Source: Rugalucina vietnamica (Eukaryota > Mollusca > Bivalvia > Lucinida > Lucinidae). From it: a stretch of DNA of 64,000 nt. Location: the NCBI GenBank assembly GCA_964017185.1, contig OZ024877.1, positions 61,034,711 to 61,098,710 on the forward strand. The letters are read 5' to 3'. The notes beneath the pieces were generated by a model. The model was not told the origin of the DNA. It saw only the letters and a list, made by a program, of their open reading frames with translations, and searched no databases. Positions within the stretch are counted from its first letter, which is position 1. Every line of letters begins with the position of its first letter. The position numbers were made by a program, and so were the translations under genes. Shown here one piece after another: positions 39,516 through 59,520 of this stretch.

Positions 39516-40634
39516 AGTGCGACAAGCTTGTCCACATATGATTTTTCTACTCTGTATACAACATTACCACATAATCTAATAAAAGAAAAACTTCTGGATT
39601 TGATAGAGTGGACCTTCAAAAGGGCATTAAAAAACTATGGTTCACTTTATTTGGCATGTAATGACAGAAAGGCTTTTTTCACTTCCTCTGACCAAAGTCG
39701 GTATACACTTTGGTCATGTCAGAATGTATGCGATGCCTTATCCTATCTCCTTGATAATATTTATATTAGATTTGGGACCAAGTTATACAGACAAATTGTT
39801 GGAATTCCGATGGGTACAAATTGCGCACCTCTCGTGGCTGATTTATTTTTATACTACTACGAAAGAGATTTCATGGATTCTCTTAACCATGATAATCAAG
39901 CTGATGTTATCGAGGCTTTTAATTCCACATCTAGGTACCTCGATGACCTTTTGAACATTGACAACCCTTATTTTGAAGGTATGGTCAATCAAATTTACCC
40001 ACCTGAACTTCAGTTGAACAAAGCCAATATCACAGATACTGAAGCCCCCTTTTTAGATCTACATCTTTCTGTTGCAAATGGATTTGTTTCTTCTAAAATT
40101 TATGATAAGCGCGATGACTTTGATTTTGATATAGTAAATTTTCCTTTTTTGGATGGTGACGTTCCTCGTCGTGCTTCTTATGGTGTATACATTTCGCAAC
40201 TTATTAGGTTTGCTAGAGTCTGCAATCATGTTGCAGACTTCAACGCTCGAAATAAATGTTTAACGGCAAAACTTCTCCAACAGGGCTATCGGTATCATAA
40301 ACTTCGAAAAACATTTTCTAAATTTTATCGTAGACACTATGAATTGATTTCCAAATATAATGTTGGGTTAAAGACGCTTTTAAGTGAGGGCCTTTCGGAA
40401 CCTGAATTTTATGGTGACTTGGTTTACAAATTTAAGAAACTTAAAGGAATTAATGATTTTTCTTTTCAGTTCAGAAAAATCATAACACGTTACAGACGTA
40501 TAGGTTATAACTTAAATGTTATGCGACAGTCTGCATGCTTAGTTTTTAACCCAATCATGGTTGATAACTATGCTGCCTTCTTTAATTGCACGCCGGTGGG
40601 TCGGGCGTCAGACTCTATGATGGCCCCGACATAA
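39516..40634 (+). pseudogene. Penelope-like reverse transcriptase, 5'-truncated ORF
   Basis: An open frame of about 370 codons covers most of a reverse transcriptase. Counting from the TTG at 39528, motif A lies at residues 3-10 (TYDFSTLYT, Asp5), motif B at 92-102 (GIPMGTNCAPL) and the catalytic YLDD at 137-140. A thumb-like region with DKRDDFDFDIVNFPFLDG follows. The GIPMGTNCAPL/ADLFLYYYE signature is shared with many multicopy invertebrate RT proteins that I assign to Penelope-like elements by recall. There is no in-frame ATG and a stop lies just upstream, so the copy is 5'-truncated, as is usual after target-primed insertion. No GIY-YIG endonuclease is found. Assignment to Penelope rather than another non-LTR lineage is moderately sure. 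Confidence 0.75.
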
Positions 40635-45075: not shown

Positions 45076-46584
45076 ATAACTTAGGGCACTGTTAGCGAAT
45101 ACATAATTTTGGAATCTGCAATACCTCTCATCATTAATAACTGTTCAAGCAATCCTGAATGCCTTCCATAGAAGTTTGAAAAAGCCACGAAAGGAAAATT
45201 TTGATATGATAACAAATGTATATCAATTTCGTCAGAATATGATAATTGGGAGTGAAGGTCTAGCACAAAAAACATAAACAATCGGGAAGTATTTGTCGAA
45301 GGCCGAATTTGATTGGGCAAAAAAGAAATCACAATAACTCGTTTTTATATTCAGAGATTTGATGGAATTCTTATGCCTATCATTGATAGCTTACAAATGC
45401 AATATTTTACGATAAAATTGATAATTTATTACCTAAATTGATTTTATGCACGTTAAATAAGCCCCACGCGTTTACACTCGCCACGTAGAAAAGAAACAAA
45501 TAGTAACGAACCCGTAGCCGTAGCGAAAGATCTAATGAGCATTCATCCAGTCATATTAGTGTCTTCGAAAAAGTGGGTGAGCATCATTCTAGTACCCTGT
45601 TAAGACAAATAAAGCCAACCAGCCTTTGTGTGTATCAAAGATCGTCTGAGACGTTCAATAAGCACTTTAGTTATTTTGTCATAACAAGTCTCAGTTTAAG
45701 GAGACACTCTTTTAGTATCACCATCTTGATCTTTGTGATTGACGCTTACAGATGAGTTTCACCATTAAATATAGTAAAGTCATCAATTAAATTGACAAGT
45801 TTATTAAAGCTTGAAGTTGAAATCATTTCCATTTGATGCGAATCTTCATTATTGCGTATTCGAATCTTTTGATTAGATGCTTAATTTGAGATAGAAGTTG
45901 TTTTTTTTCTATAATGAGCCTTGTCTCTTCTTGTCCTTAGATCTTTTGCAAAATCTTTTTTTCTAACCTCTTTCTATTTGACTAATTTCATTACCAATTT
46001 AGATGTCTAAAGTGCTTTGGTAAGCTTGTTACGAGTAAGTAAGCCATGTAATGCACAACGCTTGTGGATCTTATACTTGCACAATTTACTTTATTCGCAT
46101 AAGATTCCATCTCCACCGACTCGAATTCAGACAGTGTAATTTTAAAATAAGTATTTATTCCTGCTTTTAAATAGGAATTTTCGAATATAAACATATCTAC
46201 TAGGAATGGATGGGATTTTTTTCGTTGCCATAACATATAAAGGGGTACTCGACCGTAGAGATGAATAGATCTGTAACACTACCCATTATTGAATAAAGGT
46301 AAAAAGTAATTTTAAGGGGGTATTTAATATTACCATTATATCATCTTAAATTCTTATAATAAGTGTCACCTTATGACACACATAACTGATGTAATTAGAT
46401 GGTGTAATATGAGTGGAGAAGTCATAAGTTCGAAAGAAAGAAAAAAGGTATATTATTGTTACGCTCCCCGGTTACAGATTCCTGCACTCCGTCGCACCAA
46501 ATTCCGGTTCATCGTTCCACCTCTATCGACCTTAACCTACGACCTCTGAACTCCCGTGAAGCACGGACGATATTCCCGCCACGA

Positions 46585-46594
46585 GTGACGTCAC
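46585..46594 (+). promoter_or_regulatory. CRE-like palindrome in the LTR
   Basis: GTGACGTCAC, a perfect CREB/ATF-type site, is duplicated in the 3' LTR at 57463-57472. It suggests cAMP/ATF-responsive transcription; this is inferred from the motif only. Confidence 0.5.
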
Positions 46595-46680
46595 CAAAGC
46601 CACTGAGCCGTTTTTCCACTTTAGTTTGCCTTCCACCTTCAGCCGAAGCAGTTGAGTTTATCTCCTGATCAAAGCTGGAC

Positions 46681-46690
46681 TACAGGTAAG
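46681..46690 (+). promoter_or_regulatory. Candidate splice donor in the LTR
   Basis: TACAG|GTAAG matches the 5' splice consensus. Further candidates lie at 46846-46853 (ACA|GTAAGT) and 47047-47056 (ACAG|GTAATT), upstream of gag. Any could join to the acceptor at 54631 to make the TatD mRNA. Confidence 0.5.
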
Positions 46691-46708
46691 CTCACGTCTC
46701 CGCAATAA

Positions 46709-46721
46709 TGGCGCTGACGAG
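46709..46721 (+). other. Primer binding site
   Basis: TGGCGCTGACGAG lies 4 bases after the LTR and starts with the expected TGG (complement of tRNA CCA). The tRNA used is not identified. Confidence 0.75.
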
Positions 46722-47191
46722 AATATAATCGGATTCGCGGGTATTGTTATTTATTTTCGCGGAGTCGATTTCTCTGCGGCTAAAGCGGTAATCCGCCATT
46801 AGCCGCATATTCGTATAGCTGTGTTTTGGCGTCTTCGTCGGACCTACAGTAAGTTTTCTTGCAAATTATTTGCCAGAATTTAATTCTAAAATCATTTTCT
46901 AGTTATTTATTACAATTTTCGGATTATTTATTTTGTTTTGTCATTTTTCTCGAAATTTTATATCACCGGCTAGCTCTAGTGGCGGAGTGATCAGGGTGAT
47001 TAGGTCAAAATTTTCTAAATTTGTCCAAGTCCGAAAAGTGAATACAACAGGTAATTTTCTTTTCATTTTGTCATTTTTTGAGGTAAATTTAGCGTTATTG
47101 TGGGTAGAATACCAATTTCTTATTAGCTCCAGAAATTTTTCTGGAGGTATTCAGCTGAATTTTTCAATTTCTACCACAATTAGAGTCGAGC
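46722..47191 (+). other. 5' untranslated leader
   Basis: About 470 bases between PBS and the gag ATG. It presumably carries packaging signals and splice donors. Reading frames here look incidental. Confidence 0.6.
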
Positions 47192-48274
47192 ATGGCCATG
47201 AATTTTTACACGTGCTCGAAGGAGCAACTAGCCGAACTGGAAAAGGTCGGTGCGGCTACGGCAGAAAAATTAGTAGAATTAAGGGATGAGGCCATAGCGG
47301 GTCTGCGTGAGCCGCTCACAGTACAAGACCTGTCCAATGTCCGACTGAAAGTCGAATATTGGCAGGGATTGATTGACAAAAACATTCTGGAGTTAACACC
47401 CCCTCCAAACTTGCTTCAGCCTTATGTAAAAGGGGCTGCAGAACAAAAAGAACAACCTAGACTTTCTGAAGCTGAGAGGTTGGAAAAAATAATGGAAAAA
47501 TCTCTCAAAATATATTTTAACAGATTTGACAAAAAGTTGACCGATAGTTCAGAAATGCTTCAGTCCCAGATCAACAATTTAGAATTGGGAATTAATAAGA
47601 CACTCAACCCAATTAGAACCCAAATAGAAGATTTAGCTGAAGCTCAGTTACATGAAAAAACCCGGAGGTTAACTTTTGAAAGCGAAATTGACAAAAAATT
47701 ACAGGACATCAGCATCCGGGAAGAGCAAAAAAGTAACCAAAAAATAAATACACTAGCTCAGCAGTTATCAACAGCTTTAGATAAAATTAATTGGGCACAG
47801 GACCGTATCCTCGCAATTGAAAATATTCACAATGTTGAAAGCTTTCAAGAAGAAATGCCCCATTCGGCCGACTCTCATTTTCTATCAGGTCCCGACACTC
47901 AAACCACTGACCAAAAACCAAAGGGTTTTCAAAAACCAGATGATGAGTCAATGGACAGCATTATGGCGCGGATAAAGAAAGTTTGGCCGAAAGACAACAT
48001 TTACTCAAAGGGTTCGGCTGGTACGCCCCACACAGAAACACAGTCGGGTGAATCTACTCATGAAGTTTCACCGGGCGGTGCCTCTGGAACTGAACCGTGC
48101 CCTGAATATGAGCAACCCAAATCCAGGGGGCGGTCCAGAAATAGGAAACCTAAATCCGGTAGGAATGCCTCCAAATCGCCCTCTACCGACAGGTCATTGT
48201 CCCCTCTCCCACCGAAATTACAGACATTCACAGGAGACCCGAGTCGGGTTTCATACTTAAATTTGAAAGGATAG
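47192..48274 (+). CDS. gag: Gag, N-terminal part (frameshifted)
   Basis: A 360-residue frame from the first good ATG (CATGGCCATGAAT). Residues 1-90 are helical and acidic, and about 95-225 form long heptad-like runs (for example LEKIMEKSLKIYFNRF), probably a coiled coil. 230-335 is disordered, Pro/Ser-rich, with an Arg/Lys patch at 311-330. The last residues PKLQTFTGDPSR match the usual entry to the gypsy capsid domain. The conserved continuation (FILKFERIAERHRW) is in the next frame from 48250, so a 1-base deletion near 48240-48250 is the simplest reading. A heptamer A AAT TTG (48259-48265) happens to lie in the right phase for -1 slippage, but after the conserved block. Gag forms the particle. 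Confidence 0.8.
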   Translation: MAMNFYTCSKEQLAELEKVGAATAEKLVELRDEAIAGLREPLTVQDLSNVRLKVEYWQGLIDKNILELTPPPNLLQPYVKGAAEQKEQPRLSEAERLEKIMEKSLKIYFNRFDKKLTDSSEMLQSQINNLELGINKTLNPIRTQIEDLAEAQLHEKTRRLTFESEIDKKLQDISIREEQKSNQKINTLAQQLSTALDKINWAQDRILAIENIHNVESFQEEMPHSADSHFLSGPDTQTTDQKPKGFQKPDDESMDSIMARIKKVWPKDNIYSKGSAGTPHTETQSGESTHEVSPGGASGTEPCPEYEQPKSRGRSRNRKPKSGRNASKSPSTDRSLSPLPPKLQTFTGDPSRVSYLNLKG

Positions 48275-49365
48275 CAGAGCGACATAGGTGGAGTAAAGAC
48301 AAAATGCTTGACAGACTTTTTAGTTCCTTGACTGAAAAAGCATTAGAATATGCAATAAAATGCAAAAACAACAAAACATACGATGGACTAAGACAGGAAC
48401 TGAAATTACGGTTCGACATGACGGACGAACCTATGATAGCAAGACAGAAATTGGTTACAGCTAAGCAAACAGATGACGAAACAATAGAAGCTTACATGCA
48501 GAGGGTTCTCAATATAGCTTCTGATGGGTATGGGGAGTATGGCTTCAAGGTCATGCAGCAAATGGCAATCGAGGCATTCCTGCGGGGTTGTCACCACAAA
48601 GAGGCAGCATCATTTGTCATGGTTGCAAACCCATCAACCATACAGGAGGCCTGCCAGAAAATTAAACTCGTTATGGCAAGTAGAAAGGCCATAGCGGGAA
48701 ACAAAGTCTCTTTCCAGAAATTGTTCACCGCTCAAGAGGAAAAAAGGGTTTCTGACCTGGAAAGAGATGTGAGGGAAATGAGACAATTTTATCAATCTCA
48801 TTCCCCTAAAGATAACAGGTATGACAGAAACAGACCATATCAGTACAATGATCGCGATCGATCATTCCGATATGATGATCGCGATCGAAGCCATCCACGC
48901 GGCAGATCACGCGACCGTACTGAGTCACGCCGTAATTTTAGCCCGTCACCCCAAAGGTCGCCATCTGATCGTTATCCGGGGAAACAGTTTTACAACCGCG
49001 CTGATCAGTATAGGAGATATCCATCCAGGTCTCCGCCTGATAACAGTAGGGGAGGCTCTCCGGGGGAGCGTTACTACCCACAAAGGGAGAATTCTCCTGG
49101 TGGGTATCGTTCACCTAGAGGCGGCTCTCCATACCCAGGCGGGTACCGAGATGGATACCGTTCCCCAAGTAGATACCCCCAATATCCCGACAGGTATCGT
49201 GATGGCCAGCGACCTCCCTCTTACGACAGGTATAGGGAAGACCGTCGTTCTGATAGTGATAAAAATCGCTATGAATCGCGTGCGAGCAAGACTAGGGGAA
49301 GGTCCCCGGAGCACCCGCCGGATTTAAACTCCGATGGACTAGGCGCTCCGGCGACCAGCTCCTAG
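48250..49365 (+). CDS. gag: Gag, capsid and Arg-rich nucleic-acid-binding part
   Basis: The frame covers FILKFERIAERHRW, the capsid helices (ATG at 48304; YMQRVLNIASDGYGEYG, AIEAFLRGCHHKEAASFVM) and a tail from about 48800 to 49320 packed with RSR, DRDRS, RGGSP, YPQR and RYRD repeats. No CCHC zinc knuckle exists; the Arg/Tyr/Ser/Gly tail presumably binds RNA instead, as the GR boxes of spumaviruses do. The frame ends at TAG 49363-49365. A -1 frameshift site at 49323 lets part of the ribosomes continue into pol. The upstream boundary is set by homology, not by an ATG. Confidence 0.8.
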   Translation, partial: FILKFERIAERHRWSKDKMLDRLFSSLTEKALEYAIKCKNNKTYDGLRQELKLRFDMTDEPMIARQKLVTAKQTDDETIEAYMQRVLNIASDGYGEYGFKVMQQMAIEAFLRGCHHKEAASFVMVANPSTIQEACQKIKLVMASRKAIAGNKVSFQKLFTAQEEKRVSDLERDVREMRQFYQSHSPKDNRYDRNRPYQYNDRDRSFRYDDRDRSHPRGRSRDRTESRRNFSPSPQRSPSDRYPGKQFYNRADQYRRYPSRSPPDNSRGGSPGERYYPQRENSPGGYRSPRGGSPYPGGYRDGYRSPSRYPQYPDRYRDGQRPPSYDRYREDRRSDSDKNRYESRASKTRGRSPEHPPDLNSDGLGAPATSS

Positions 49366-49391
49366 TCCCATCACCGTCTGAACTAGGTCGC
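49323..49391 (+). promoter_or_regulatory. -1 programmed frameshift signal (slippery site + pseudoknot)
   Basis: T TTA AAC at 49323-49329 is in phase with the gag codons GAT TTA AAC. A 6-base spacer follows, then stem 1 GGACTAGG (49336-49343) pairing with CCTAGTCC (49361-49368). Six loop bases GCGACC (49351-49356) pair with GGTCGC (49386-49391), giving an H-type pseudoknot. Slippage leads into the pol frame, which has no stop from 49329 to the protease. Confidence 0.85.
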
Positions 49392-49403
49392 TCCTGCGAT
49401 GTA

Positions 49404-50918
49404 ATGGAGGTAAGATTACCAAGCCAAAGGGATCTGACTGTCTCTGTAGAAGTATTGCTTAATGGCTATCCTATGGAGTCGGTTGTTGACAGTGCCGCTA
49501 TGGTAACCCTTATAAAGGAAGATTTTTTGAAATCGGTTTTTCATCCTACCGATTTAGGACCTGTTTGTATACTTTCAGGAATAGGTGCTGACCCTGTGCA
49601 TGGAAGATTAGTGCACAATGTGCCTATTACTGTTGGTACACAAACATTTCTGCACACAGTTTGTGCAGCTCCTATTAAGGACACATGTTTACTGGGTCTC
49701 GATTTCATGATAGCAACTGGTACCATCCTTAATCTCAGTCAACATACCATGACTGTAGATGACGAGACCATTCCCATCAAAGTCAATAAACACCCCGGTC
49801 TGCAAGTCTCAAATGTGAGCATTGTGAGACGCACTGTCATCCAGCCACATTCTGTAGGATTCATTGAAGCAAAACTGGATAACCCGATCGAAGGTGATTT
49901 CATGGTTACTGGCCTTTCGAATAAAAAGGCATTGGTTGCAAATGTCTATGGCACAGGCACGTCAGTAACTATGAAAGTCATCAACGACTCGGACACTTTT
50001 GTCACCTTCAAAAAAGGAAAATCAATTGGACATGCGGAGCCCGCCGAACGTGTTGTAGTCCAACCTGAGTACAACACAATCAATCAAGCAAAACACACTG
50101 GGACAAATCAAACAGAGACTGCAACCCAAGACTTACCTGCCCATCTAAAACAAATGTTTGATGATAATATTTCGAACCTTTCGGAATCTGAGAAATTGCA
50201 ATTCAAAAAGTTACTTATAGAATACCAGGATACTTTTTCTAAAGACGATTTTGATTTAGGTTGCCTCAATTCCGGAGTGGAGCATAAAATCAATACTCAT
50301 GATGAAATTCCAATTGCAGAAAAATTTAGAAGGACTCCACTCCATTTTCAAAAGCAAGAACAAGAATATATTGAAAAACTTTTGAAGCAGGGAGTCATTG
50401 AACCGTCAGTCTCAGAATGGTCTGCCCCACCAGTGCTTGTCAGGAAAAAGACCGGTGAGCTCCGATATTGTATAGATTATAGGTCCCTCAATGCAAAAAC
50501 ATACAAAGATAATTATAATCTACCCCTTATTGAGGACTGTCTGGATTCTCTACATGGGAAACGACTGTTTTGTATTCTGGATCTTTGCTCTGGATACTAT
50601 CAAATAAATCTTGAGGCTGGTTCTAGGAAGAAGACGTCGTTTAACACCCGTTTTGGTAGTTTCCAGTGGACCCGCCTACCCATGGGGTTGTGCACAGCGG
50701 GGGCCACATTCCAACGGGCTATGAGCTTGGTTTTAAGAGGATTACAATGGGAAGAAGTAATCGTCTATCTGGACGACGTCATTGTCCTAGGTACCAATTT
50801 CAGTGATACTCTATCAGCACTTCATAAGACCCTAGAACGGTTCAGACAATACAATCTTAAGCTTAAGCCCAGGAAATGCTCTTTCTTTAGAGAGAGTGTG
50901 GAGTTCTTGGGTAAATAA
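49404..50918 (+). CDS. pol: Pol, protease and reverse transcriptase (stop-interrupted)
   Basis: The frame is really entered by frameshift at 49329; the first ATG is at 49404. The aspartic protease has active-site VVDSAAM (Asp29; DSA in place of the commoner DTG/DSG) and a later LLGLDFM. The RT domain spans about residues 290-504: RYCIDYRSLN, LPLIEDCLDSL, FCILDLCSGYYQI (motif A), LPMGLCTAGATFQRAM (motif B) and YLDD at 455-458 (motif C). It ends at VEFLG followed by TAA (50916-50918). The same frame continues open afterwards with the normal RT-to-RNase H linker, so a single nonsense change is the likely cause; readthrough cannot be excluded. It copies element RNA to DNA in cytoplasmic particles. 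Confidence 0.9.
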   Translation: MEVRLPSQRDLTVSVEVLLNGYPMESVVDSAAMVTLIKEDFLKSVFHPTDLGPVCILSGIGADPVHGRLVHNVPITVGTQTFLHTVCAAPIKDTCLLGLDFMIATGTILNLSQHTMTVDDETIPIKVNKHPGLQVSNVSIVRRTVIQPHSVGFIEAKLDNPIEGDFMVTGLSNKKALVANVYGTGTSVTMKVINDSDTFVTFKKGKSIGHAEPAERVVVQPEYNTINQAKHTGTNQTETATQDLPAHLKQMFDDNISNLSESEKLQFKKLLIEYQDTFSKDDFDLGCLNSGVEHKINTHDEIPIAEKFRRTPLHFQKQEQEYIEKLLKQGVIEPSVSEWSAPPVLVRKKTGELRYCIDYRSLNAKTYKDNYNLPLIEDCLDSLHGKRLFCILDLCSGYYQINLEAGSRKKTSFNTRFGSFQWTRLPMGLCTAGATFQRAMSLVLRGLQWEEVIVYLDDVIVLGTNFSDTLSALHKTLERFRQYNLKLKPRKCSFFRESVEFLGK

Positions 50919-53483
50919 GTAAGTGGCGATGGTATCAAGATCTCGCCTGATAAGTTAGAGGCCGTCGAAAAATGGCCTGTTCCCCGGAATGCCAAAGAAC
51001 TCATGTCCTTTCTTGGCTTCATGAACTACCACCGTAATCACATGCCTGGCTTTGCTAAGGTCTCCACTGACCTATATAACCTAGCACATGCCAAAGAGTT
51101 TAAGTGGAACAGGCACCATCAAGCCTGTTTTGAGAAATTGAAGAAAATGGCCACAACAGCTCCAATGCTCTCCCATCCATCCCCAGATGGCCTATTCATA
51201 TTAGATTGTGATGCATCAGGTTTACAAATCGGAGCGGAGCTGTCCCAAGTTCAAAATGGTATAATTAAGCCCATCTGCTATGCCAGCCATGTACTTAAGC
51301 AACACCGAAACTATTGCACCACACGAAAGGAATTATTAGCAGTAGTTAAGTTCTGTCGCCAGTTCCGGCATTATCTGCTTGGAAAACACTTCCTGATCAG
51401 AACTGATCACAATTCCCTTGTTTGGCTGACCCGATTCCGTCACCTTGAAGGACAATTAGCTCGCTGGCTCGAGGAATTGTCCCAGTACGATTTCAAGATC
51501 CTGCACAGGAAGGGCGCAGAGCACGAAAATGCAGACTGCCTAAGTCGCATTAGGGACCCACTAAAAGAGTGTGACTGTTATATGGCAGGCAGTAAGGTAG
51601 AAGAACTACCGTGTGGTGGCTGCAGATATTGTAGGCGGGCACATCAGCAGTGGGCTAGGTTCAATGATGACGTCGATGACGTCATTCCCCTTGCCGTCCG
51701 GAGTGTAGATTTGGATTCATCCCATCAGTCAATACCAGATTCAGAATCTCGTCCGTCCTCAAATTGGGTAGAGAGTTTGTCGTCTTTCCAACTAAGGCAA
51801 GCCCAGCTGGATGATATTAACATAGGAACAATAATCCACTGGCTAGAGCACTGCTATGATCCATCAACTAGGGAACTCCAGCTATGTAGTCCTGAAACCA
51901 GAGCTCTGTGGTTAACTCGGGATCAGCTGGTCCTGAAAGATGGAATTTTGTACTATGTCTGGACAGACCGTGACGATCGCTCACAGTGTTTAGTAGTTCC
52001 GACAGAACTTCGACTAAAAGTTCTGTACCATTGCCATGATTCCAGAGATTCAGGTCATCTTGGCGGAACTAAAACGCTTGACAAGTTGAAACAGCGATTT
52101 TATTGGTATGGGATGTCCAGAGATAGCAACATATATGTTAAACAGTGCCCTAGCTGTAATAAGAATAAAAAAGGGAATCGAACCCCCAGGAGCGCTCTAG
52201 GATCATACCACGCTGGGTACCCTATGGAGCGGGTTCATCTAGATATACTAGGGCCCATCAATCCCCGCAGTAAGTCTGGTTGTAGCTATGTGTTGGTTAT
52301 GGTCGACCAGTTCACCAAGTGGACTGAATTGGCCGCCCTACCTTCACAAAATGCCGAATTGACCGCCAAAGCGTTCCTCAAACATTTTATAGTTACGTTT
52401 GGGTGCCCTTTGGAGGTCCATACGGATCAAGGTCGAAATTTCCAGTCTGACCTATTTACAGCTTTTTGCAGGCTACTGGAGATTTCGAAGACAAGGACTA
52501 CACCATATCACCCGTCTAGTAACGGTCAGTGCGAGGTTTTCAATCGCACTATTTTGCAAATGATCAGGGCTTACGTTTCTCGAGGTTTTAGAGATTGGGA
52601 CGAGCATCTTCCCTTGATTTCCATGGCTTTGCACTCCATGAAAAACAAATCTACAGGTTTTTCAGCCAACCAACTCATGCTGGGGAGAGAAGTAATTCAG
52701 CCCATAGATCTCATACTTGGCATTTCTAAGCCTTCTCCCCGGGACCCGTCAAACTGGGTCGAGAATCTGGCAAATAATCTCTCAGAGATCCACAAACTGG
52801 CCAGAGAAAAGATTGGAGAAAGCCAGCTGCGCCAGAAGAGAGATTATGACCTTAGGGTATTTGAAAGGTCCTATAAGGTTGGAGATGTAGTCTTTTTGAG
52901 AGACTCATCAACAGAAATAGGCATCAGTTCAAAGTTGCGACCCCCCTGGAGTGGCCCATTTTTGGTCATTGGTGCTCGCCCCCCAATCTATAGGCTTCGA
53001 GGCCGTAAAAAGTCTATGGTTGTGCATCATGACCGATTGAAACTATGCACTGACTCAACATGTCCTCTGTGGCTGCAGAGACAAAGACACAAACTTTTAG
53101 AAACTGCACCCCCAGAGGAAATGAGGGATTCAAACATAGATCCTGATCTAGATGGTCCCGAACCACCTCTGGATGATCCCCCAGATGTAAGTGTGCTATT
53201 TGATCCTGATGAAACATTACCTTACATGTTGGGGGATGACCCAGAATTGTTGGAAGATGACAATCAATTTGACAATCAATTTGATATTCAATTTGACGAT
53301 CAGTTTGACAGTCAATTTGACCACACTCAGCAAGAGAGTCAGATACCTTGTGACATTACATCTCAGGCTCCCAGCGACCTAGATCTCCTATTAGACCCAG
53401 GGGGCCAGTCCGAACCCTCATCTCTACCCCGTACATCCCGGAGGGGCCGTAGAATAAACCTTCCGGCTCGTTTTAAGGATTAA
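50919..53483 (+). CDS. pol: Pol, RNase H and integrase
   Basis: Same frame as the preceding segment; the first ATG in it is at 51003 (numbering from there). RNase H: DCDASG (Asp70), RKELLAVV (Glu110), TDHNSLV (Asp135). Next is a Cys-rich linker with CGGCRYCRRAH (C204, C207, C210, H214). Integrase: zinc-binding H345..H352..C382..C385, then the DDE core Asp414 (HLDILG), Asp475 (HTDQGRNF) and Glu511 (GQCEVFNR), with exactly 35 residues between the last two. A GPY/F-type module WSGPFLV follows (649-655), then HHDRLKLC. The C-terminus is acidic with five QFD repeats from about 53264. No chromodomain is seen. It removes template RNA and inserts the cDNA. Confidence 0.92.
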   Translation, partial: VSGDGIKISPDKLEAVEKWPVPRNAKELMSFLGFMNYHRNHMPGFAKVSTDLYNLAHAKEFKWNRHHQACFEKLKKMATTAPMLSHPSPDGLFILDCDASGLQIGAELSQVQNGIIKPICYASHVLKQHRNYCTTRKELLAVVKFCRQFRHYLLGKHFLIRTDHNSLVWLTRFRHLEGQLARWLEELSQYDFKILHRKGAEHENADCLSRIRDPLKECDCYMAGSKVEELPCGGCRYCRRAHQQWARFNDDVDDVIPLAVRSVDLDSSHQSIPDSESRPSSNWVESLSSFQLRQAQLDDINIGTIIHWLEHCYDPSTRELQLCSPETRALWLTRDQLVLKDGILYYVWTDRDDRSQCLVVPTELRLKVLYHCHDSRDSGHLGGTKTLDKLKQRFYWYGMSRDSNIYVKQCPSCNKNKKGNRTPRSALGSYHAGYPMERVHLDILGPINPRSKSGCSYVLVMVDQFTKWTELAALPSQNAELTAKAFLKHFIVTFGCPLEVHTDQGRNFQSDLFTAFCRLLEISKTRTTPYHPSSNGQCEVFNRTILQMIRAYVSRGFRDWDEHLPLISMALHSMKNKSTGFSANQLMLGREVIQPIDLILGISKPSPRDPSNWVENLANNLSEIHKLAREKIGESQLRQKRDYDLRVFERSYKVGDVVFLRDSSTEIGISSKLRPPWSGPFLVIGARPPIYRLRGRKKSMVVHHDRLKLCTDSTCPLWLQRQRHKLLETAPPEEMRDSNIDPDLDGPEPPLDDPPDVSVLFDPDETLPYMLGDDPELLEDDNQFDNQFDIQFDDQFDSQFDHTQQESQIPCDITSQAPSDLDLLLDPGGQSEPSSLPRTSRRGRRINLPARFKD

Positions 53484-53711
53484 AAACATTTTTTATCTTT
53501 CGCATCTGCATGGGCAACTGTAGCTGGTATGCTTGTTGTCTGTGTAGGTGTGAAAACATTTTTTTATCTCGCATCTGCATGGGCAGCTGTAGCTGGTATG
53601 CTTGTTGCCTGTGTGGGTGTGATCTGCACACTGGCAGGGACACGTAGAGCTGGTATGCTTGTTGTCTTTGCGGGTGTGTACAGATTGTTTTTAATACAAC
53701 GCCCGGGGTGA
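53484..53711 (+). repeat. In-frame hydrophobic ~60-80-bp repeats after the pol stop
   Basis: Beyond the pol TAA the same frame stays open for about 75 codons. It encodes repeated membrane-like segments (ASAWATVAGMLVVCVGV, ASAWAAVAGMLVACVGV, then RAGMLVVFAGV). The DNA repeats share AGCTGGTATGCTTGTTG. It could be a small separate ORF (ATG at 53529), a readthrough tail, or merely a tandem repeat. Confidence 0.45.
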
Positions 53712-54630
53712 GCAGTCGTGGTCTGCCAGGCGAGCTAGTATGCTAAATGGTCGATCCGGCTGTTCGCGCTGGGTAAGTTGGCATGAATGAGTCTGGTTCA
53801 ACTATGAGCCCGGGTTATGTGTGACAAATGCTGCATGTGCCGACGTATGCCGTCATGGGGGTTGCCTAGAGCAGGTTTGCTGTGCGATCCCTGGGGCGGA
53901 TGCGTCGAGCTGTTTTTAAACTCCTGTCGTTCTGTTGAATGGAGTAGTAGAACTTACTGCTGCTCTAGTCAATGGAACCATTTGTATATATATATATAGA
54001 TCTGTACACAGCTGTAGGGAATGTCATGCTGTCAGAGCCCATTTTCATCTGGTCACTGCCAGCATGGTCATTTTTCGGTCATGTGAGTGTCCGGGGGCCC
54101 TCGGGGCACTACATGGCTTTGTCCGTTTAATGTTTTAGATGGACAGTCATGTCCATGTAGGACATTTCCACCTACCATCAGATGATTTCCGTCACAATGG
54201 TAGGGAAACCAGCACCCCCACAGGAAATTAGAGCATGCCTGCCATAGCAAATTGTAAAAACATATTTTTTTTTTCATTTATTTTTACTAAGATTGTGCTT
54301 TTGATTTTAAGTTTTAGAAATTATTCATCACTCTGTAAATATCCAAATGTCAATTTATTTTACTCGTAAGTGTTAATATTTAACACTTATTCATTCCATA
54401 TACTCACAGTAGAAAAATATATAAAAAAAAAATATATAATAAATTCAAAACTAGTCCAAAGGACATATTATAAAACAGAGAGAAAACAACATTTTATAAC
54501 TCATTGTATTATAACCATTAAAAATACAAAATTCATTGAAACACATAAAAATAGATAAAAATCCATTTAGTTAGCATCTTTCATCCTTTTATAAAATAGT
54601 AAAAAGATTTTATGTATTTTTTTAATTGCA
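53712..54630 (+). other. Spacer between pol and the TatD ORF
   Basis: About 0.9 kb without a convincing ORF. It becomes AT- and pyrimidine-rich toward the TatD start, as expected for an intron end. Confidence 0.55.
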
Positions 54631-54632
54631 GA
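54611..54632 (+). promoter_or_regulatory. Candidate splice acceptor before the TatD ATG
   Basis: TATGTATTTTTTTAATTGCAG ends at 54631 and is followed by A and then the ATG (54633). A T-rich tract plus CAG is a strong 3' splice site. Its placement implies that TatD is translated from a spliced subgenomic RNA. Confidence 0.65.
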
Positions 54633-56033
54633 ATGTCTCAACTGAACAGCAATAATCGTTGCAATGCCTGTGGCAATAAAACCTCCCGATTAAGGCGGCA
54701 TGCTCTGCGGGTCCATATGCCCTGGTATATGGATCCGTCCACTGCTTGTGTGGACTGTCAGCGGAACGAGGGAACTGGGTTGGACCTCAACAGGTTTCAT
54801 CCGGGGCACCAGCGGGTTGTTGGGGAGACCCTCCTGCAGGCCTGGGTTCTTCTCATGAATGGAATTTTTCTGTTCATGACGAGGAACTTGGGATTGGGGT
54901 CCCCTAATGATCTTCTGGGGTTCGTGGTGGCCAATGAGCTCCACCCCAGGTCTTTTCGTTTCTCTGAGGAGGAAATTTTCTTCTTCAGAGAGTTCGATCG
55001 GAGATCAGGTTTGGAACCGTTAACGGCCGATGAATATAAATCAATTCCTCCCACCAGGCTTATTGTGCTATCAAACTATTCAGTCGTACTGAAGATGTGG
55101 ACCCATCTGAGTCCTATAGCTCAGTCCAAGTTCCTAGCTGAGTGTCGGTATGTTCGATTGGATGGTTCCTTTCCTCCCAACGGTTATCCTAAACTGAAAG
55201 TGGGAATAATCGATTCACACTTTCATTTAGATGGTTTCTTCGATCGATATCCCACTACATTGTCCGCCCTGGAGCGCTCGGCTAAGTCAGAAATTGATGT
55301 TCATCTTTGCTATGCAATTCAAAATTTTGTGTTTCCAGCAAGGTGGCCAAACATTGACAGGCACATGGCGGGGGACCCAAGACTAAGATTTACTCTTGGA
55401 ATTCACCCTCATGTGCTTGCCAAGGGGAGGCCACTGGATGAATTTAAAAGATTACAAGATATGTTGGAAAATTATCCCGAGGCAGTAGGGATAGGCGAAA
55501 TTGGGATCGATCACACCACTCGATGCAAATGCGCTACGTTCCATAACACAACCCGTTGCCGAGAGGAAAAACTCGAAACCCAGCGTCAATTTCTGCGTCT
55601 CGTGCTACCGCTAGCAAAAGAACTAGGCAAAGTGATTGTACTCCACGTCCGCAGCAAAGATAAAGATGAGCAGGCCACAGCTGCTCAGAAGACTCTTAAA
55701 GAGCTCCTAGACGCCGGATTAAGCAATGCGCCGATTCACCGCCATTGTTTTATAGGGGGGATAGAGGAATATAATGACTGGAGCTCTAAACTCCCGAATT
55801 GCTATTTTAGCCTTTCCAGTAAGTCAGTTAAGGATAGTAAAACGGTAGCTTGTTTGAAATCCGTGGGAAGGCCTGACCGTCTTATTCTAGAGACGGACTC
55901 CCCATACTTGGTTAACACTGAAAGACCATGGATGGCCTATAAAAATGGGGAGAAAGCAGCTCAAATAATGGGAATTCCAACCATTGAGCTTATAAGAGTG
56001 TGCAATAGAAATGCTGCTAGGCTATATAACTAA
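54633..56033 (+). CDS. TatD-type metal-dependent nuclease with N-terminal zinc fingers
   Basis: 466 residues from the ATG just after the splice acceptor (an ATG 21 bases upstream adds 7 residues that would be intronic). The N-terminus has two zinc-finger-like sets: C10, C13, H23, H28 and C39, C42, H56, H59, with RVHMPWYMDP between. Residues 60-185 are a helical region I do not recognise. The TatD/amidohydrolase barrel spans about 188-466: IIDSHFHLD (His196, His198), LGIHPH, VGIGEIGID (Glu289), VLHVRSKD (His338), HRHCFIGG (His371), LETDSPYL (Asp422). All expected metal ligands are present. TatD enzymes are Mg-dependent 3'-5' DNA exonucleases or repair nucleases. A Cys/His-rich insert (CKCATFHNTTRC, 298-309) interrupts the loop after Glu289. 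The ORF is intact while gag and pol are damaged. A role in cDNA processing, competitor DNA removal or integration is inference. Confidence 0.9.
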   Translation: MSQLNSNNRCNACGNKTSRLRRHALRVHMPWYMDPSTACVDCQRNEGTGLDLNRFHPGHQRVVGETLLQAWVLLMNGIFLFMTRNLGLGSPNDLLGFVVANELHPRSFRFSEEEIFFFREFDRRSGLEPLTADEYKSIPPTRLIVLSNYSVVLKMWTHLSPIAQSKFLAECRYVRLDGSFPPNGYPKLKVGIIDSHFHLDGFFDRYPTTLSALERSAKSEIDVHLCYAIQNFVFPARWPNIDRHMAGDPRLRFTLGIHPHVLAKGRPLDEFKRLQDMLENYPEAVGIGEIGIDHTTRCKCATFHNTTRCREEKLETQRQFLRLVLPLAKELGKVIVLHVRSKDKDEQATAAQKTLKELLDAGLSNAPIHRHCFIGGIEEYNDWSSKLPNCYFSLSSKSVKDSKTVACLKSVGRPDRLILETDSPYLVNTERPWMAYKNGEKAAQIMGIPTIELIRVCNRNAARLYN

Positions 56034-57318
56034 CCCTGGTAAGCCACTCTTATTGGGTTGGAGTGCGTCACGTTGAATAGTTCTCGATTTATATTAAGAA
56101 AGCTCTTTTTAGTTAACATTGCTTCAGTGGTGAAGAGCTGGTATGTTGTCACCACTGGAGAGAGTGTTCTTCGCGATATTTTCAGAGCTCGCGTTCAGAT
56201 TACTTGATTTCACTAAATTTATTCTTGCGGTAGTGAAGAGCTGGTATGTTGTCACTGCTGCAAGGATTCTTCCACTTTTTACTATTTTGCTAGTGTGGGA
56301 TTTCCAACAGTTTAATTCATGTTTATCATATATATATTTATTCTTTTTTCAGGCCAGAAAAATCTATCAGTTCTAAAAAGTAAGTTAGATACAATTGCAT
56401 GCAAAATGAGCATGGTTTAGTTTCAATATAGCTGAGTAGCTATTTTTGATTTCTTTATTATGTTTAGTTGCAATTCTTCCAGAGATTACCAATGTGAACA
56501 CGGTTCACAGAGTTAACCCTACCTTTAGAATAGTTTTCTCTGTTGTAACGGAAAAAAAATAGGATAGGTTTAGACGAGATTTTGATATTTTTCACAATAT
56601 TTAAATATAACCAAATTGTACTATTATACAATACAAGGGGAACAACTCTGGGAACTCTCATTATATTCATCTTCCATAGTTGTCATTCATACTTCCATAA
56701 AAAAATATAAAGAAAAAAAAATCATTCTATTCATGCTACATTTTGTAAAATTCATGCCACCTGACACGGCAGTAATCTCTGGAATTATTTTAGTTTATAT
56801 TTAGTTTCTTTTGAGTTTATTAGTCGAGCCTTCAGGACGTACTATGATCAAGTGAATGTCCTGCTACTGTGATATTAGAAACCCCTAGTGGCTGACTATA
56901 CACACAGGTAGTGTGATATATTGTATGTAGTATTTCATATTGTACACTTTATATATAGCACCATCCAGTCTCATCCAGGTGGCAAGAATTCCGTCCAAGT
57001 ATGTATATATCTTTTAAAGTTCAGATTTCAATTCAACACATATCTGTAAATTCATTGTCATTAACTGTGTATAGTATAAATAATTTGTATAGTATAAATA
57101 ATTTTATATCTTATTGATGTTAAAGAAAAAGAAATTAAGTCATCTTCATCACCTCATTGCTGCATTCTTCATACACTTTAAATCTAAAAATTAGTAACTA
57201 ATAAGATCAAATTTCAATTAATCACGAATTTATAAAGTTAGGATTAAGTCAAAATTCTAGAAAAGCTTTAAGGACAGAGCATGCATTGTGTTTTTGTAAA
57301 ACTGTGCCCAGGACTTTT
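56034..57318 (+). other. 3' spacer of the retrotransposon
   Basis: It has two direct repeats of GAAGAGCTGGTATGTTGTCAC (56134 and 56234), the first inside a hairpin (CAGTGGTGA..TCACCACTG). A 77-codon hydrophobic frame starts at 56143 but has no family resemblance. The remainder is AT-rich. Confidence 0.6.
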
Positions 57319-57333
57319 TAAGGAAGGGGGAGA
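57319..57333 (+). other. Polypurine tract
   Basis: AAGGAAGGGGGAGAG lies immediately before the 3' LTR (one T lies between) and primes plus-strand synthesis. Confidence 0.88.
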
Positions 57334-57334
57334 G

Positions 57335-57582
57335 TGTTACGCTCCCCGGTTACAGATTCCTGCACTCCGTCGCACCAAATTCCGGTTCATCGTTCCACCT
57401 CTATCGACCTTAACCTACGACCTCTGAACTCCCGTGAAGCACGGACGATATTCCCGCCACGAGTGACGTCACCAAAGCCACTGAGCCGTTTTTCCACTTT
57501 AGTTTGCCTTCCACCTTCAGCCGAAGCAGTTGAGTTTATCTCCTGATCAAAGCTGGACTACAGGTAAGCTCACGTCTCCGCA
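57335..57582 (+). repeat. 3' LTR (248 bp)
   Basis: Same sequence as 46457-46704 by eye. It is followed by ATATTAT, matching the seven bases before the 5' LTR. Confidence 0.95.
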
Positions 57583-59520
57583 ATATTATTTAATTATAAA
57601 GTTAGACTAAATACAGGGACTGAAACAATACAAAATCTTAAACTTTTAAAGGTTTAATTCAAAATCTTAAATCTTTGTATTGCTCCACACTGTGTGTCGT
57701 AGACTTTACCGTTGCATATTAAATATAATTAGTAGAACGCAGAGGGCCGAGTCTGGGTCATTTTACTGACTTAAGGATTTCCGATTTACTTCATTTGTCA
57801 CCAAATCATGCGCTTTGATTGACTAATCGAAAGAAAAAAAAGAGATATAAAATTTGCAGCGGCTTTTATTAAGAAATCCGCTGTATGAATCTAAAACGTG
57901 TTGTCATTCGCTCGTCCATGCTTCGTCACAATAATCCTACAGAATAATACTGCAGAACGTTCGTGCAGAGCATCTGCGTTTGCATAGACTGTATTGGCTT
58001 CGGAAAGTGATTTTATTATATTCATAACGCGCTGCAAACTTCGAGCTATATTTATTTCAGACACTTAAGATTTAACGTCTTAATTTGGGCTTAATCTTTT
58101 AAAGATTTTCAGCTTTACGTATATTGTTACACAACATGAAGTCAGGTTAAATGGGTATTTGTGTGTCTAATAAATTAATCCAGTTTCCTAAGCATGGGGT
58201 ACTTTACTCGTACTAGCAGTTCTACAGGTATTGGCCAATAAATTGTATAAAACATATAGGGAAAAAATATTTAACACTTGGTAACTTTCTTACTTCTTAT
58301 GATATTTTTATATCACGAACGGCGTTAGAAAGTATAATCCTTTGTCTTTACCACAGTTTTTAAATTTTTGACGTAGCGCTATTATAAAATGGTCTGTTTG
58401 GGGACGGCCGTCTTGTTGTACGCAATTTAATTAAATATATAGCAAAATTTCCGTAAAACGCGGTTAAATACGCCTAGGTACATGACTTCAGCAACAATTT
58501 TAAGCTATAATTTTACATAAATGTTAGGCGTCACAAACGGTCCAATGTAGTAGAAATATTATACTTTAATCTGGTGTATTTTTTATTTTTGGAGCTCAAC
58601 GATAATTTGGTCTGTTTGAGCATTGACCAAAAAAATAATAAATATTATTTTCTGTCTGGAATTTCCGTGAGTATCCGTAAAATGCACCGATAAGACCCGA
58701 CTAAATTTCCAGGTATTAATGCCGTGGGCGAAGATTATTGCTCTAATATGAAAATGAAATGTATTTGATGACTGATAGTGTAATAAAGAATTTCATATGG
58801 ATAATTAATAGGCTTAAGTTAGAGAGTGATATTTTGCGGAAATAAAACATTAAACTTTACCATATTTTTTCTCCTTTTTCGGCAGTAGATGCCGAATTGA
58901 AAACACAGATGTCAACTCGCTCATGATTGCATAATGTCAATTAGTAATGACACTGTGTTAAATTCGCAATCACGTTCTACTCATTTAATTTATCATTTTA
59001 TTTTTATGAGAATCTTTTTTATAATTATTTCATGAGTTATTTGTATTTTTTTTTTTTTGATGCTGTAATCCGCAACAGGACGAGTGCTCGATATCTGTCA
59101 TTCAAAGTCAATCCAAACAAAATAGCATCTTTTATAACCTTTAATTAAAGAACAAAAACATCAAACATAAACGTTTAAAGCGATCATCGCATGAACAGTT
59201 GAATTCCGACAACAATTAAAGAAATCAAATTACATGTAATCCATTTAAGTTACGTATTTCGCACATACTCGAGATATAATTGAGCAAACCGAACGAGTAT
59301 AATTACTCATTTACCGAAAGCGGTGCATGGTGATGACACTGTGCCATAACACATTATGCATGCTTTATTTAACCAAGGTGAAGAATTCAAAGATATTTAA
59401 AATCTATTTTTTAATATTTTGACACGAAACAAAAACATTTAATCATTATACATGTATCGTAGTAGAGAAGACTCCTACATTTATCAACCTAAATATGTGT
59501 TATTACGGATTCGTGAAATG
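57583..59520. other. Unannotated AT-rich flank
   Basis: About 1.9 kb in which I see no gene, tRNA or recognisable repeat. Confidence 0.35.

Follow-up and report, generated by a model that had tools for sequence, protein, structure and literature searches.

A TatD-type third open reading frame in Ty3/gypsy retrotransposons of the bivalve Rugalucina vietnamica

The window analysed here is a stretch of 64,000 nucleotides from Rugalucina vietnamica (assembly GCA_964017185.1, contig OZ024877.1, positions 61,034,711 to 61,098,710), and its positions 46457-57585 (+) are a Ty3/gypsy-type long terminal repeat (LTR) retrotransposon. The third open reading frame (ORF3) of this element, which lies between pol and the 3' LTR in the position of an env-type third ORF, has the TatD nuclease fold. 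It is close to certain that ORF3 is a genuine gene of the element. For the reading as a whole, we consider it fairly probable that ORF3 is an accessory nuclease, in which zinc-finger-like sets and a helical N-terminal domain are joined to a group-II (HxH) TatD domain, and that it acts on the element's own intermediates.

Genomic linkage and constraint of the TatD gene

The genome searched comprises 1.09 Gb, with the window on contig C9. Because the TatD search scored 90 of 152 candidates and the pol search 55 of 3901, the locus counts below are lower bounds and the absences are soft. Eight loci encode TatD at 98-100% identity to that of the window, and all eight are flanked by two family LTRs on one strand. 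The window LTR has 23 matches in the genome, 17 of which are the LTRs of these eight loci; among the others, two are full or nearly full with no partner nearby, and four are weak (69-75%). One 5' LTR of the eight loci is interrupted by 13.9 kb, and one copy has LTRs just 5.4 kb apart, with the integrase end and TatD retained. The homology of all eight copies reaches the last LTR base, and the DNA beyond differs. LTR pairs show no mismatch in the four copies compared, and the flanking duplications agree in three copies (TTAT, TCGT and CTAT) and are imperfect in L009 (ATAG/ATAT). These copies are recent insertions.

The 30 best TatD loci of the genome fall into seven families, F1-F7, with L034 placed in F4. 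A same-strand pol lies upstream of TatD at 28 of these 30 loci, and was not found for L017, which is degenerate, or L034, which is N-terminally truncated. The integrase C-terminus is at most 1.5 kb upstream at 23 loci, further upstream at four loci, and 10.7 kb away at L014. Seven of the 23 show it with a weak match (E 6e-4 to 4e-3), and each of these seven gives a full match in the integrase search. In the opposite direction, an integrase search of the genome merged to 53 pol loci. Downstream of 34 of the 35 pol loci with 64-100% integrase identity there is a same-strand TatD, at a spacing of 0.8-3.7 kb in 33 and of 10.7 kb in one, and these loci represent at least seven sequence families; the exception, with no TatD downstream, is C11:55.30 Mb. 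In a second lineage (lineage B, 50-53% best-segment integrase identity), TatD is present at six of the seven listed pol loci, and TatD was not detected at any of the 11 pol loci with 40-48% integrase identity. Outside the window family, LTRs were determined for three copies, one each from F3, F4 and lineage B: those of the F3 copy L018 are 99.6% identical over 245 aligned nt, and the duplication is ATAC when CA is taken as the LTR end; those of the F4 copy L023 are 100% identical over 232 nt, with a TTAT duplication; and those of the lineage-B copy L070 are 99.7% identical over at least 307 nt. Since other copies carry the ORF at the same place, the TatD is not a one-off capture. The initial annotation had asked whether other copies lack the ORF, or whether it is a host exon caught in this insertion only, and the counts of 8 of 8 between two LTRs and 34 of 35 pol loci answer both in the negative.

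A reading in which these are host multicopy TatD genes that merely adjoin LTR elements could draw on the 35 of 75 merged TatD loci with no listed pol upstream (the other 40 have one). These 35 include short fragments, a group at 35% identity (at L068, the roughly 9 kb preceding the ORF showed no pol), loci whose pol was unscored (L071, where pol is present) and an internally deleted copy at C1:43.02 Mb. However, many of them are fragments, the pol search scored only a small part of its candidates, and order, strand and spacing are the same at the 34 related pol loci, as is the placement between two LTRs in the eight same-family copies. The host-gene reading is contradicted for lineages A and B, and we regard it as scarcely credible.

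ORF3 is under purifying selection. The initial annotation proposed computing the ratio of non-synonymous to synonymous rates (dN/dS) across copies, and the result is constraint: dN/dS is 0.20-0.43 between F1 subgroups and 0.17 for the whole ORF between F4 and F6, at a dS of 0.75 (p 1e-40), while most comparisons between more distant families are saturated at synonymous sites. The L005-L009 comparison shows 12 synonymous changes against 9 non-synonymous ones (Fisher p 6e-4). Because the copies are separate insertions, we infer that the between-family constraint must act on the element gene. A further possibility, that a host TatD exon was captured by chance and is a functionless passenger, would accord with the known capture of host sequence by LTR elements and with the early stop in the window copy; against it stand the presence of the gene in at least seven families and in a second Gypsy lineage, the purifying selection, and the retention of the metal ligands at all 30 loci. 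It is contradicted by the between-family dN/dS and appears very improbable.

The element in the window and the ORF3 protein

The features of the window element are as follows.

46453..46456 (no strand): left copy of the target-site duplication TTAT, directly outside the 5' LTR
46457..46707 (+): 5' LTR, 251 nt, identical to 57335-57585; its end is set by the shared homology limit of eight copies
46683..46691 (+): splice-donor-like site CAG|GTAAGC, with GT at 46686-46687, 22 nt from the LTR end
46709..46721 (+): putative primer-binding site TGGCGCTGACGAG, a TGG-starting stretch just inside the 5' LTR
47192..48274 (+): gag-like ORF, piece 1 (ORF list; weak HHH_3 match, E 0.006)
48304..49365 (+): gag-like ORF, piece 2, in a different frame from piece 1 (ORF list; PNMA match at just E 0.17)
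49404..50918 (+): pol ORF of protease and reverse transcriptase, closed by an in-frame stop (ORF list, Pfam)
51003..53483 (+): pol ORF of RNase H and integrase, sharing the frame of the protease and reverse transcriptase ORF (ORF list, Pfam)
54618..54631 (+): splice-acceptor-like tract ending in GCAG, one nt before the ATG at 54633
54633..56033 (+): ORF3 (TatD), 466 aa, with zinc-finger-like sets, helical N-terminal domain and TatD nuclease domain; the ORF opens at 54612
57320..57334 (+): polypurine tract AAGGAAGGGGGAGAG, directly before the 3' LTR
57335..57585 (+): 3' LTR, 251 nt, identical to the 5' LTR
57586..57589 (no strand): right copy of the target-site duplication TTAT, directly outside the 3' LTR

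The two LTRs are identical at 251 of 251 nt, with TTAT on both sides, and the Pfam domains of pol are in the order Asp_protease_2 (just under its cut-off), RVT_1, RT_RNaseH, Integrase_H2C2 and rve. The LTR identity, the short duplications and the domain order bear out the initial description of a Ty3/gypsy retrotransposon, and of a young one. The start given there for the element (46457) stands; the end (57582) was 3 nt short, as the 3' LTR ends at 57585. The TatD had also been called intact, which holds for its uninterrupted catalytic domain but not for the insertion: the gag frame breaks between 48274 and 48304, an in-frame pol stop ends at 50918, and the TatD ORF stops three codons short of the usual ...NLPW end of the family. 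In related copies, open pol frames are about 1385-1395 aa. The initial annotation, otherwise sound in its reading of element and TatD, was silent on the gag and pol breaks and on the splice-site arrangement described below, and the second TatD-bearing Gypsy lineage was beyond its view. Elsewhere in the window, an ORF of 368 codons at 39528-40634 (+) matches reverse transcriptase weakly (Pfam E 0.075) and may be Penelope-like.

The TatD ORF spans 54612-56033 (473 codons) and matches Pfam PF01026 over residues 200-473 (E=4.6e-34; 118.4 bits against a cut-off of 27), and with this length and a match at 5e-34 it is not a chance ORF. Translation probably starts at the ATG at 54633, and the length is then the 466 codons first proposed for the env slot. 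All six metal ligands are present, as had been predicted, namely H203, H205, E296, H345, H378 and D429 in ORF numbering (+7 relative to His196, His198, Glu289, His338, His371 and Asp422 in the 466-codon numbering), and so are both of the predicted zinc-finger-like sets, C17/C20/H30/H35 and C46/C49/H63/H66. The six ligands (HxH, E, H, H, D) are retained at 30 of 30 TatD loci of the genome, and the first zinc-finger-like set is retained in lineages A, B and C. The HxH (group II) motif together with the extended N-terminal region also agrees with TATDN2 as it is defined in the accessible text of PMC10085689. Structural identification (VIA rows) spans residues 195-473 and gave none for the N-terminal domain (14-196), which was not predicted alone. 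A Pfam search of ORF3 returned TatD and a sub-threshold amidohydrolase only, with no envelope or fusion glycoprotein domain. ORF3 very probably encodes an active nuclease.

Splice-like signals, sister elements and relatives

In retroviruses and errantiviruses, env is a third ORF between pol and the 3' LTR and is reached by splicing from the leader. ORF3 is like env in position and in apparent leader splicing; unlike env, it matches a nuclease and not a fusion glycoprotein. At the 27 scored loci, which cover all seven lineage-A families, the TatD ATG is preceded by a T-rich YAG whose end is 1-11 nt away (L017 and L034 were left out of the scoring, and the site of L031 looks the same by eye). 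At 16 of the 27, the 1.4 kb upstream contains no more than one further AG with a score as good. The acceptor-like site is 16 nt before the ATG in lineage B and 30 nt before it in the C group. On the donor side, one donor-like GTRAG lies 14-22 nt from the LTR end in each of the four LTR families examined (GTTAGT in one F3 LTR). The two kinds of site together suggest that TatD comes from an env-style mRNA spliced from leader to ORF3, and expression of this type is probable.

Of the 11 pol loci at which TatD was not detected, two, L080 and L081, were read downstream, and tblastn with 59 TatD domains found nothing downstream of their pol. Their post-pol slot holds an ORF that opens with two zinc-finger-like sets (L080, 286-819, 177 aa; L081, 124-903, 259 aa), whose Pfam zinc-finger matches are under the cut-off. 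A profile of 59 proteins gives a weak match in L080 (E 0.005 among 24 translated frames), and an acceptor-like AG adjoins the ATG in L081 and precedes it by 8 nt in L080. These zinc-finger ORFs with an acceptor-like AG suggest that the spliced zinc-finger ORF3 may have come first; TatD would then have been added in lineages A and B, or else lost in the TatD-less sisters. The integrases of A and B are 39-43% identical, and those of the TatD-less elements share 38-39% identity with A and 37-40% with B.

The lineage-B copies L070 and L071 have integrases about 41% identical to that of the window. In L070 (positions 3-2663) the last domain of the integrase is a PHD finger (Pfam E 8.8e-8), for which a use in the choice of target chromatin is possible, and the TatD ORF runs from a likely ATG at 2723, about 60 nt past the pol stop, to 4834 (about 700 aa). 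Relatives of this TatD ORF in other genomes include TatD-bearing proteins (P0095-P0105, from precomputed Pfam) and a set, P0108-P0137, in which 21 of 30 list Gag-type Pfam domains, P0116 representing 44 member sequences. Alignment of two of them, P0111 and P0116, shows a Gag-type portion followed by the N-terminal half of ORF3, with the fusion stopping at the first TatD motif; we infer from these sequences that such proteins may be pol-deleted derivatives in which the N-terminal half is useful without the nuclease.

A third TatD group (34-35% identity to the window TatD, with 538-aa frames) is found at L068 (C4:66.90 Mb), L069 (C2:17.61 Mb), C11:14.78 Mb and C3:7.50 Mb; most of a 9.7-kb stretch with tandem repeats is 99% identical between L068 and L069, and this group is perhaps a long or non-autonomous element. 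In a TatD tree whose set held no identified animal TATDN1-3, A, B and C each form a single branch. Five proteins named after Thiodiazotropha or Sedimenticola metagenome bins (P0034, P0037, P0044, P0053 and P0062) fall in element groups A and C, and are probably host DNA in symbiont bins. A figure of the giant squid Hox cluster, in the accessible part of PMC6962438, includes a TATDN2-like ORF that may be an element copy and has a pogo-type element gene close by.

Known systems and possible roles

The initial annotation knew of no described LTR element using a TatD, and literature searches likewise found none published, with preprint servers and most subscription papers outside their reach; the word TatD is absent from the accessible main text of a mollusc (PMC6238403) and an annelid (PMC8556966) LTR element paper. 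Enzymatic ORF3s in LTR elements are already known, and it is the TatD fold there that was not found reported. The closest published case found is that of the bdelloid rotifer LTR retrotransposons Juno and Vesta, whose ORF3s, with a DEDDy exonuclease or a GDSL esterase, are described in the available sections of PMC5408684 as expressed from spliced messages. Like the window element, they carry an enzymatic, non-envelope ORF3 after pol; however, their nuclease has the DEDDy fold and departs from neutrality to no significant degree according to the same sections, whereas the window family has the TatD fold with zinc-finger-like sets and clear constraint. Orchid Ty3/gypsy elements have reportedly acquired an m6A demethylase domain (PMC9289625), and are alike in combining Gypsy with a host-type enzyme and different in enzyme and host.

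The cellular group-II TatDs YcfH, YjjV, TATDN3 and TATDN2 (PMC10085689, as far as accessible) have the fold, the HxH motif and the six ligands in common with ORF3, which differs in being on a mobile element and in an extra N-terminal region, zinc-finger-like and helical and about 196 residues long, that is missing from the seven bacterial TatDs aligned. The best-matching defence profile is QatD (PADLOC E 1.7e-13), also a TatD nuclease of similar sequence. An identification as QatD of the Qat anti-phage system was rejected, with 54.6 bits against a curated equivalog cut-off of 230 and with gag, pol and LTR as neighbours. IMG/VR yielded no family member (four distant TatDs, 25-30% identity), and none of 55 candidate stretches in GTDB contigs was confirmed as one. 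Among plasmids, all 60 records are below 60% identity and fall short of 80% query coverage; the annotation is QatD for 19 of the 20 listed and TatD family hydrolase for the other. As none of these collections consists of animal genomes, little can be read from such an absence.

Based on the results presented above, a possible course of action can be outlined. Transcription would start in the 5' LTR, the donor near the LTR end would be joined to the acceptor before the ORF3 ATG to give a separate, short, env-like mRNA, and the N-terminal region of the product would hold it on nucleic acid or on particle components. The TatD site would then clear leftover RNA or single-stranded ends from the intermediates that the element itself forms in reverse transcription or integration, and the yield of integrable cDNA would rise. 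Known TatDs are 3'-5' exonucleases acting mainly on single strands, and they cut abasic sites in double strands (accessible text of PMC10085689); TATDN2 cleaves RNA, resolves R-loops and acts in germ cells (PMC12709183, in the part available). Action on RNA remnants, single-stranded ends or hybrids would be the simplest benefit to the element, with host or rival targets as the main competing idea, and we assign the processing of its own intermediates to ORF3 only tentatively. The possible roles that the initial annotation had put forward were the trimming of cDNA ends, an attack on rival or defective cDNA, and the processing of integration intermediates.

In that competing idea, the nuclease serves counter-defence or competition and attacks host or rival nucleic acids such as R-loops, silencing-triggering RNAs or competing cDNA. 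A separate spliced mRNA, if real, would yield a free rather than a Pol-fused protein, and both the activity of Tatdn2 on R-loops in germ cells (same part of PMC12709183) and the rank of QatD among the defence profiles point in this direction. On the other hand, the QatD score is far under its curated cut-off, there is no known target, and elements in one genome would also hit each other's relatives; we hold a counter-defence role to be rather unlikely. It is also conceivable, at a still lower probability, that what serves the element is the N-terminal half with its zinc fingers and helices, as a binding factor in packaging, nuclear transport or RNA binding, and that TatD is secondary. This would fit the two sister elements with zinc-finger-like ORFs and no TatD in the slot, the Gag-type proteins with the N-terminal half only, and the first finger set kept in lineages A, B and C, but it sits poorly with six ligands at 30 of 30 loci and with the whole-ORF dN/dS between F4 and F6.

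Several observations weigh against the main reading. Very recent pairs carry too few changes to show constraint, some with dN/dS above 1; the L018-L031 and L013-L016 comparisons give p 0.33 and p 0.026, and the damaged L017 has a dN/dS of 0.8-1.0. The lineage-A relative P0041 has lost three of the six ligands, and the acceptor scores are unremarkable in L022 (10 of 52) and L033 (13 of 65). Moreover, Gypsy elements can live without TatD, since L080 and L081 do, and the nuclease may not be the sole useful part, since the Gag-type proteins retain the N-terminal ORF3 half and lack the catalytic domain.

With these points taken into account, we lean slightly towards the zinc-finger TatD being a retroelement-specific accessory nuclease with env-like splicing in at least two Gypsy lineages, perhaps by addition of TatD to an older spliced zinc-finger ORF3. 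Few reports exist of enzymatic accessory genes in LTR retrotransposons, and what the element gains from them is mostly unclear. Here, selection maintains a nuclease in several families of a single genome, splice-like signals accompany it, and natural TatD-less sisters allow comparison; the purpose of a retroelement TatD is therefore directly testable. If the reading is true, many multicopy TatD or TATDN2-like genes in the annotations of molluscs and other marine invertebrates (Crassostrea, Mytilus, Pinctada, Lytechinus) would be unrecognised element genes. Multicopy TatD annotations in invertebrates should also be viewed with caution, as they may be mobile-element genes and not host gene expansions.

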